DNA of 64,000 nt from the NCBI RefSeq assembly GCF_000332235.1, contig NZ_CM001775.1, forward strand, positions 3,500,804 to 3,564,803, written 5' to 3'. Below are positions 61,952 through 63,230 of the stretch, piece after piece. The notes beneath the pieces were generated by a model. It searched no databases. It saw only the letters and a list, made by a program, of their open reading frames with translations, and was not told the origin of the DNA. Each line of letters starts with the position of its first letter. Within the stretch, counting starts at the first letter, position 1. This DNA comes from Geminocystis herdmanii PCC 6308. Its GTDB lineage: Bacteria > Cyanobacteriota > Cyanobacteriia > Cyanobacteriales > Cyanobacteriaceae. Position numbers and translations under genes: made by a program.

Positions 61952-62575
61952 TTGTATAGCAATTTAAGTAATCCTATTATCGAAAAAAGTTTTGCCATCA
62001 TCGATAATATTATCGGTAAACATGATCTCAGTGATGCTGAATATAATATTGTACGCCGTATTATTCACACAACAGCGGATTTTGATTTTTTACATCGGCT
62101 TCAGTGTAGTTCCAGTGTCATTAAAAGCTCGATCGAACTTTTAAAAGCAAAAACACCCATTATCACGGATGTTAGCATGATCAAAGAAGGTATCCGTAAT
62201 ATGGTAGCAAAAACCCATGAAAATGAGATAATTGTAGCGGTAAAACAGGTAAAAGAAGCCAAATTAGGACAAACTTTGACAGAAACAGGTTTAATCCAAT
62301 GTTGTGAAAAATATCCTACAGCAATTTATGTAATCGGTAACGCACCCACAGCATTAATAGCTTTGTGCAAACAATATGAAGCTAAAAAAATTAACCCTTC
62401 TTTAGTCATTGGTGCACCCGTAGGATTTGTGTCAGTATTAGAATCTAAGGAATATTTAGCCAAGTTAGACATTCCTCAAATACAAATTATAGGGCATAAA
62501 GGCGGTTCAACGGTTGCCTCTGCCATTGTCAATGCTTTGTTAGTTATGTCAATGAAAGAAAATTTTTTGCCCTAA
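61952..62575 (+). CDS. cbiC: Precorrin-8X methylmutase
   Basis: CbiC/CobH family: FAIIDNIIGKHDLSD, RRIIHTTADFDF with the catalytic-type His39, ITDVSMIKEGI, and the end IIGHKGGSTVASAIVNALL. The enzyme moves the C11 methyl group to C12 in cobalamin synthesis. Length 207 aa is normal. The best start is TTG at 61952; no ATG precedes the conserved sequence in frame and no ribosome site is seen. No other cob gene and no cobalamin riboswitch is nearby. Confidence 0.9.
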   Translation: MYSNLSNPIIEKSFAIIDNIIGKHDLSDAEYNIVRRIIHTTADFDFLHRLQCSSSVIKSSIELLKAKTPIITDVSMIKEGIRNMVAKTHENEIIVAVKQVKEAKLGQTLTETGLIQCCEKYPTAIYVIGNAPTALIALCKQYEAKKINPSLVIGAPVGFVSVLESKEYLAKLDIPQIQIIGHKGGSTVASAIVNALLVMSMKENFLP

Positions 62576-62688
62576 TGGACACGAGTGCAAAATAAAAAGT
62601 AAAATCTATTTTCCTTAATCAAAAAAGAGTAAGAAGTAAGATAAAATTATAAGTACTAATAGAAAATAAATTGTAGATTTGTGAAGTA

Positions 62689-62983
62689 CCTAACACTAAC
62701 CTTGCGGTATAGTGTAGGCTTCTCGTCTCAAATGCCACTGCTTTATCTTACTCCGAACTCAATCTAAGTATGATCAAGACTTACACAGCATCTCTGGTAT
62801 TGCTACCTTTATGGCTTTCGCCAACCCGAGCAGGAAACTGCCTTCCGCAGTCTCATAGAACAAAAAATTCTATTTGCATCTCAACCTTGCCATTACTTGG
62901 TATTGGGCTGATTACTTCCCTAGACTCTGCCGAGTACATACTTTATGCCACAAGGGCGGCCTCTTAGTCAGCTAGGAGGGTCA
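62689..62983 (+). ncRNA. Structured RNA element, probable orphan HEARO / IscB omega RNA
   Basis: About 295 bases are packed with local hairpins: the first at 62689-62718 (CCUAACACUA...UAGUGUAGG), then GGUA-UUGC-UACC, GGC-UUUC-GCC, GCAG-GAAA-CUGC, CUGC-CUUCC-GCAG, AUAGAA...UUCUAU and ACUC-UGCC-GAGU. On the plus strand it ends in AGGAGG at 62974-62979 and an ATG at 62984 opening MTNFIL..., like the start of IscB, but the frame stops after 12 codons. The start follows GTGA, a HEARO insertion site. Several loops are GNRA only on the minus strand, so a minus-strand RNA (for example a TnpB-type 3' end) remains possible. Confidence 0.5.
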
Positions 62984-63022
62984 ATGACCAACTTCATCTT
63001 ACCAAATGGATGTTCTATTTAA
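62984..63022 (+). pseudogene. Possible truncated iscB start (12 codons)
   Basis: An ATG with an excellent AGGAGG ribosome site opens MTNFILPNGCSI and stops. The first six residues resemble the IscB start (M-x-N-F-V-x-V-L). If right, nearly the whole nuclease has been deleted. This is inference from a very short match. Confidence 0.3.
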
Positions 63023-63064
63023 CAATATTTTTTCTGAAAATATCATCAAACAGAACGTTTTTTT
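63012..63064 (+). terminator. Long imperfect hairpin followed by T-run
   Basis: Arms of 20 bases (63012-63031 and 63037-63056) pair with four A-C mismatches on the plus strand, followed by GTTTTTTTG. On the minus strand all four become G-U pairs, giving a fully paired stem. It may be the right-end hairpin of the element above or a terminator. Confidence 0.5.
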
Positions 63065-63230
63065 GCCTACTTACCTTTATTGACTCATCAGCCTTGATAG
63101 TCATTTTTTACTATATTTTTTGTTACAAATAATTGAATAATATTATATGATGTTCTTGTGAGCAATTATGATGTTTGTTAGATGAAGTTATGTCCTTTGA
63201 AATCGATCGACTAAATGTAAGATAATCTGT

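Follow-up and report, generated by a model that had tools for sequence, protein, structure and literature searches.

What kind of element is the compact non-coding block at positions 62681-63064 of the 64,000-nt stretch of the Geminocystis herdmanii PCC 6308 genome that we analysed (hereafter, the window), and which nuclease, if any, would its RNA serve? The first-pass annotation had presented it as an orphan HEARO/IscB omega RNA without its nuclease; the observation was confirmed, and the interpretation was partly supported. The block is a non-autonomous element of the IS200/IS605 type; its RNA belongs to the minus strand and has the architecture of a TnpB reRNA.

The window element, its copies and its RNA

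The block is a real and sharply bounded element, since the own genome (4.26 Mb) contains, at another place, a copy (L002) that is 99% identical over 62679-63066 and has different flanks. Three more copies in this genome are 71-82% identical across most or part of the block, which is also matched there by one fragment and five right ends. Loci L007-L011 have in common with the block just its first 42 bases, with the right-end hairpin matching at 83-91%; tnpB is complete in L009, incomplete in L007 and L008, and reduced to remains in L010 and L011. At L008 (2-1527), a reverse-transcriptase frame of the group II intron type stands directly before the TnpB C-terminal piece, in one open frame of 877 amino acids. 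The window element has no protein gene. A left-end hairpin and TTTAA site are readable in L002 and missing from the window copy, which, to judge from this loss of the left end, is probably immobile, yet could still make RNA. The parts of the element are listed in Table 1. Just behind the precorrin-type ORF (GGACACGAGTGCAAAATAAAAAGTAAAATC region), the stretch 62573-62612 is found, nearly unchanged, at dozens of places across the genus; the window neighbourhood showed no synteny within the genus.

Table 1 Features of the window element and of its edges
Feature	Position	Strand	Remarks
Left-end remnant, AT-rich inverted repeat upstream of the RNA	63002..63066	-	Edges by match to L002
-10-like hexamer TAAGAT	62996..63001	-	5 nt before the conserved RNA start; 4/6 TATAAT matches
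Putative RNA, about 310 nt, guide excluded	62681..62990	-	Length 310 in L001 and L002
5' hairpin GGUC-AUU-GACC	62979..62989	-	Conserved start hairpin
Extra 5' domain	62855..62978	-	Alignment A3; more divergence among copies
Stem 1, with loop GGAAG (62842-62846) as 5' side of the pseudoknot	62834..62854	-	Helix 1 of A4
Stem 2 (62785-62790 with 62733-62738), GUAAGUC, stem 3 (62768-62773 with 62746-62751)	62733..62790	-	Helices 5 and 6 of A4
Right-end hairpin, equivalent of TnpB reRNA stem 4, common to tnpB elements	62687..62722	-	
CUUC, 3' side of the pseudoknot, inside terminal CUUCAC	62683..62686	-	
Putative guide (flanking DNA)	62661..62680	-	By analogy with TnpB reRNA, from passages of PMC8612924 and PMC10097598
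12-codon ATG frame	62984..63022	+	Judged accidental; ATG kept in 4/24 copies

Matches to element DNA occurred in 11 of 60 genomes, counting the own genome, and in many of these they covered the end hairpin alone. A 3'-core covariance model of the element RNA (R1; nine sequences, compensatory change in 16/35 pairs) matched 12 of 388 cyanobacterial genomes of the class, again including the own genome. The exact pattern of one core subtype was found in ten stretches of named genomes, with Planktothrix rubescens PCC7821, Anabaena sp. 4-3 (three), Calothrix (three), Scytonema, Pelatocladus and an Oscillatoriales genome bin as hosts; the same pattern, for this one subtype alone, gave no match in viral contigs, and plasmids had no match to the element. 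The analysis covered 34 element loci, after removal of fragments (L006, L014, L027, L028), of rows at the same places as L001-L026 (L050-L052, L062-L064, L069, L070, L074, L076), of weak or partial matches (L059, L060, L079), of rows with flanks and RNA as in L025, L026 and L024 (L133, L136, L137) and of two of the 32 R1 places, which had no assigned locus.

The minus strand of the block folded at -95.6 kcal/mol (z -2.5, none of 100 dinucleotide shuffles as good) and the plus strand at -79.2 kcal/mol (z -1.5, 6/100 as good). Standard pairs formed in 792 of 841 cases on the minus strand vs 688 of 841 on the other, a comparison somewhat favourable to the minus strand, on which the structure was derived. 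The strand, left unsettled at first, is the minus strand because G-U pairs number 121 there vs 17 on the other strand.

The structure that was scored comprised an outer stem, stems 1 (8 bp), 2 and 3, one hairpin and a pseudoknot of 4 bp, in an alignment of 25 of the 29 distinct sequences from the pseudoknot analysis; L002 (a near copy of L001), L067 and L078 (near copies of L058/L075) and L061 (stem 1 not properly found, pseudoknot 3/4) were left out, and one hairpin (GGC/GCC in the window copy), where the alignment was out of register, was omitted from the counts. In these 25 distinct copies 94.2% of the 841 pair cells formed, compared with 73.3% in shuffled alignments, a figure that leans towards the structure because the latter was partly derived from the same sequences. 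Both sides varied in 22 of the 34 pairs (17.2 in shuffled alignments, as high in 1/500), so that the compensatory changes proposed as a check on the hairpins proved abundant, and the covariation score was 0.570 vs 0.189 when shuffled (0/500) and 0.070-0.093 when the structure was slid.

Stem 1 was paired in 99.0% of its cells, with both-side change in six of its eight pairs. The pseudoknot between GAAG of the GGAAG loop and CUUC of the terminal CUUCAC could form all four pairs in 33/34 copies, the exception being L061 with three of four. L056, L130 and L134 have a GGAAC loop with GUUCAC, a compensated C/G switch; the loop finder, which maximised stem pairing in purine-rich loops, favours GAAG-like loops and does not favour this switch. 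Among the 24 full-length copies, near-duplicates included, the last pair of the 5' hairpin was C-G in seven, U-A in nine, U-G in seven and broken in one. About 170 nt at the 3' side of the RNA form a scaffold of the TnpB reRNA type, and about 140 nt at the 5' side form an additional domain.

Relation to the reRNA of TnpB

In the ISDra2 omega RNA, as described in passages of PMC10097598, bases -105 to -103 of the stem-1 loop pair with -5U to -3C immediately before the guide, and stems 2, 3 and 4 follow stem 1. The element RNA has the order expected of a TnpB-type reRNA, namely stem 1 with the 3'-end pseudoknot, stems 2 and 3, and the right-end stem 4, and like the ISDra2 RNA (parts of PMC8612924 and PMC10097598) it then reads UUCAC and the guide position. 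Unlike TnpB reRNAs, which end in GUUCAC, most element copies have CUUCAC with the loop GAAG; most also have two additional hairpins between stems 1 and 2, and the RNA has an extra 5' domain. TnpB reRNA is normally cut from the tnpB transcript itself (passages of PMC10278001), whereas the element RNA lies neither within nor behind a tnpB gene: joint encoding with tnpB on one transcript was found for the element RNA at none of the 34 loci, and a search with one TnpB query found TnpB within no element and in the neighbourhood of a single one, outside its boundary, at L067.

Covariance models of the element RNA and of TnpB reRNA matched each other's cores. The latter model (R2) was built from 13 TnpB-type reRNA cores without the right-end hairpin, one of which, L010, is a tnpB-deleted element. 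On 16 element loci, the 12 best matches of R2 were element cores, on the correct strand, with 14.0-56.3 bits. Ten of the 16 exceeded 15.4 bits, the best match of R2 to a control other than a reRNA; L025 and L026 stayed below this control maximum, L055 and L072 gave partial matches (7.6 and 8.6 bits), and L023 and L066 had no match at the core. The match of the window copy was weak, at 19.0 bits (E 0.025 in 50.7 kb). Two matches above 15.4 bits occurred in the 14 control loci, both at tnpB 3' ends. Conversely, the 15 best matches of R1 on 16 TnpB-type loci were reRNAs. At E<=0.1 in the own genome, R2 found 11 places, none of them an element copy, so that the models establish homology to TnpB reRNA for the element family and not for the window copy taken alone. 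Rfam families gave no match to the element copies (E<=10) or to seven TnpB-type loci (E<=1).

At the right ends of TnpB-type elements, GUAGUUCAC was terminal in 24/25, the odd one (L105) looking spurious. Their loop was mostly GAAC or GAAU, which was not found in L112, L113, one of the two in L114, L119 and L126.

Ends, insertion sites and promoter

End hairpins like those of autonomous elements in the genome, as expected of elements akin to PATEs (palindrome-associated transposable elements), were found at the right end, in common with L007-L011, and at the left end of L002, L003, L005, L024, L026 and the G097 copies. Left ends matched those of TnpB-type loci in three genomes: in the own genome (G000), L005 matched L010 at 85% over 141 nt and the complete tnpB element L109 at 72% over 126 nt; in G048, L026 matched L106 at 80% over 134 nt; and in G097, L077 matched L115 at 91% over 47 nt. 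For most copies of G182, G298, G328, G406 and G011, no convincing left-end match was found to the few TnpB loci compared.

The left end could be located in 21 of the 34 loci. It was preceded by TTTAA in all 15 cases outside G097 and by TTAG in all six in G097; some of these ends had been located with TTTAA in mind, and those of G298, G048, G097 and L056/L130/L134 (same left end, different flanks) are independent of that expectation. In L024, a clean insertion of 464 bp lies in a dioxygenase-like gene, precisely 3' of the short motif TTTAA and with no target duplication: the joined flanks read in frame, and the alignment crosses the junction uninterrupted in 12/12 relatives other than G048 (13 of 60 genomes, G048 included, matched the site). 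Three sites carry near-identical copies of 654-655 bp (L055, L065 and L071). Elsewhere, L025 is an element copy without its left end in a gene whose two pieces read as an ABC-exporter permease, with an intervening stretch apparently missing, and the right end of L003 runs into the 3' end of an exbB/tolQ-like gene, which takes its stop codon from the element.

Near the RNA start, 18 of the 24 full copies have a TATAAT-like hexamer that matches in five or six of six positions (background 10%). The box of the window copy is weak, with four of six, and a promoter and terminator scan of this copy found nothing on the minus strand. These boxes suggest that the element RNA may be transcribed from its own start. 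Locus L010 (1084-1542) keeps the left end, the promoter region and the start of tnpB, joined to the reRNA and right end, and this internal tnpB deletion could represent a first step or intermediate.

In eight of the 34 loci, a ribbon-helix-helix-like frame faces away from the RNA; seven of the eight are related (L066 and L139 not intact) and one (L072) is different. The genes are intact in L054, L055, L065, L068, L071 and L072, and the window copy has none. In Pfam, the L072 protein scored above the cut-off for RHH_1 (23.4 vs 20.5 bits), and the other three small proteins tested were closest to DUF6364, all below its cut-off; tblastn with these proteins found them in no other locus compared. 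Those copies with such a gene that were inspected by eye have a palindrome over the RNA promoter.

A proposed guide RNA in trans and the competing explanations

The sequences support the RNA structure, its strand, family-level homology to TnpB reRNA, a target motif, one clean insertion, the absence of tnpB and, in three genomes, ends in common with TnpB-type elements; that the RNA is transcribed, loads TnpB in trans and leads to cleavage and retention is what we infer from them. Taken together, these elements are probably IS200/IS605-type transposons that have lost tnpB and would express, from a promoter near the left end, a reRNA-like RNA used by TnpB in trans. Transcription from near the left end would yield the structured RNA, which would end where a TnpB reRNA ends and run on into flanking sequence with a match in the empty site next to TTTAA. 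Movement of the element, with insertion after TTTAA, would depend on TnpA from other elements. TnpB, likewise supplied by other elements, would bind the RNA, in which the sequence immediately past the right end would serve as the guide. Once the element has excised, TnpB could cut the vacated site flanked by TTTAA, and repair would copy the element back. For TnpB in general, Karvelis et al. (in passages of PMC8612924) propose such cleavage of the donor joint after excision, with restoration of the element by repair. Both TnpA and TnpB were present in all eight element genomes searched, G048 having a single weak TnpA. The likely function of the RNA, on this analysis, would be to guide resident TnpB in trans and thereby to keep the element in place. 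More tentatively, at somewhat less than an even chance, the elements may be satellite transposons that exploit the TnpA and TnpB of others by means of a promoter-driven guide RNA, their sole cargo apart from the small ribbon-helix-helix-like gene in Nostoc-group hosts; they would achieve programmed retention with no nuclease gene of their own, and a repressor of their own would set the RNA dose.

The RNA might instead act as a decoy that binds resident TnpB without useful cutting and lowers its activity, favouring or limiting the loss of other elements. A TnpB-like scaffold with an added 5' domain would suit such a role, and inhibition of TnpB cleavage by part of the TnpB mRNA is on record (passages of PMC10278001); we regard it as unlikely, given that the 3' end up to its junction with the guide and the pseudoknot are conserved, and that each copy has, in the flank behind it, a guide of its own, as expected of a working guide.

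To the same low degree we would credit the notion that the copies are passive remains, ends-only elements moved by TnpA in which the RNA fold is kept for end function or inherited from a reRNA. PATE-like elements are known, one of which retains the right end and the final 58 nt of tnpB (passages of PMC7290912), and L010 in the own genome is a tnpB-deleted element with its reRNA. Compensatory changes, however, extend beyond the end hairpin across the inner RNA (stems 1 to 3), and the start hairpin and -10-like box are conserved.

The elements stand close to several known systems. They resemble PATEs in having IS200/IS605 ends without transposase or tnpB and in needing TnpA in trans, as passages of PMC7290912 describe, and differ in having a conserved, covarying RNA between the ends and, in some hosts, a small gene. 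They resemble RAGATH-18 in carrying a TnpB guide-RNA scaffold. RAGATH-18 RNAs are the reRNAs of IS607 TnpB, and 10,258 of 16,029 (64%) adjoin an IS607 TnpB according to passages of PMC11061315; the elements differ in the TnpB family, and tnpB-less elements are not described in those passages. Two published findings count against strong novelty: PATE-like elements with parts of a reRNA are already published (in part of PMC7290912), and over a third of RAGATH-18 reRNAs do not stand beside IS607 TnpB (same passages of PMC11061315). In the searched literature, whose coverage left most subscription papers outside, we recognised no description of tnpB-less elements with a conserved standalone reRNA. 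Should the preferred reading, a guide RNA used in trans, hold, OMEGA guides would have become separate, selectable genes outside CRISPR, much as effector and guide are separate in Cas12 systems, and the elements would be a natural source of guides acting in trans, with an added 5' domain and a changed pseudoknot that reveal what TnpB tolerates. They make parasitism of TnpB retention a testable question.

The identity first proposed, a HEARO/IscB omega RNA on the plus strand, was suggested by the GTGA edge, the guide-side flank and an AGGAGG with an ATG frame, and can practically be dismissed: RF02033 gave no match at E<=10 and found all five positive controls, no IscB above cut-off was found in the own genome, G-U pairs favour the minus strand, and the ATG taken for an IscB-like start is not conserved (as CAT on the RNA strand, it occurs in 4/24 full copies, all from the own genome). 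The five controls, cyanobacterial loci with matches of 102.9-162.9 bits upstream of iscB, were those of ten iscB loci whose upstream side lay within the locus. Rfam searches found no family at gathering score over the whole window; at E<=10, they gave three matches in 62570-63230 and five in 13 loci with element copies or pieces, none of them HEARO. An RF02033 search of the own genome was empty, and its controls were equally without match. Like HEARO RNAs, the element RNA would be a guide RNA at a transposon end beside the flank, and it differs from them in strand, in the lack of a covariance-model match and in the lack of iscB. Standalone IscB omega RNAs were reportedly described by Altae-Tran in 2021. 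An IStron or group I/II intron, considered for the GNRA loops and the CAGAGACUA stretch, was rejected, with no Rfam intron match at E<=10.

Much of what the first-pass annotation had seen was nevertheless sound. GTGA at the left edge, AGGAGG (62974-62979), the 12-codon ATG frame, the AT-rich hairpin and the T-run are all present in the sequence. The putative guide flank was rightly positioned near 62680 and wrongly assigned to the 5' side, as it would lie on the 3' side of a minus-strand RNA. The description of a non-autonomous copy with an OMEGA-type guide RNA and no nuclease was right in kind, TnpB being the nuclease absent from the elements, as was the suggestion that a nuclease encoded elsewhere, here putatively TnpB, might serve it. 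The expected copies beside nuclease genes also have a counterpart, in the right-end hairpin that the block has in common with tnpB elements.
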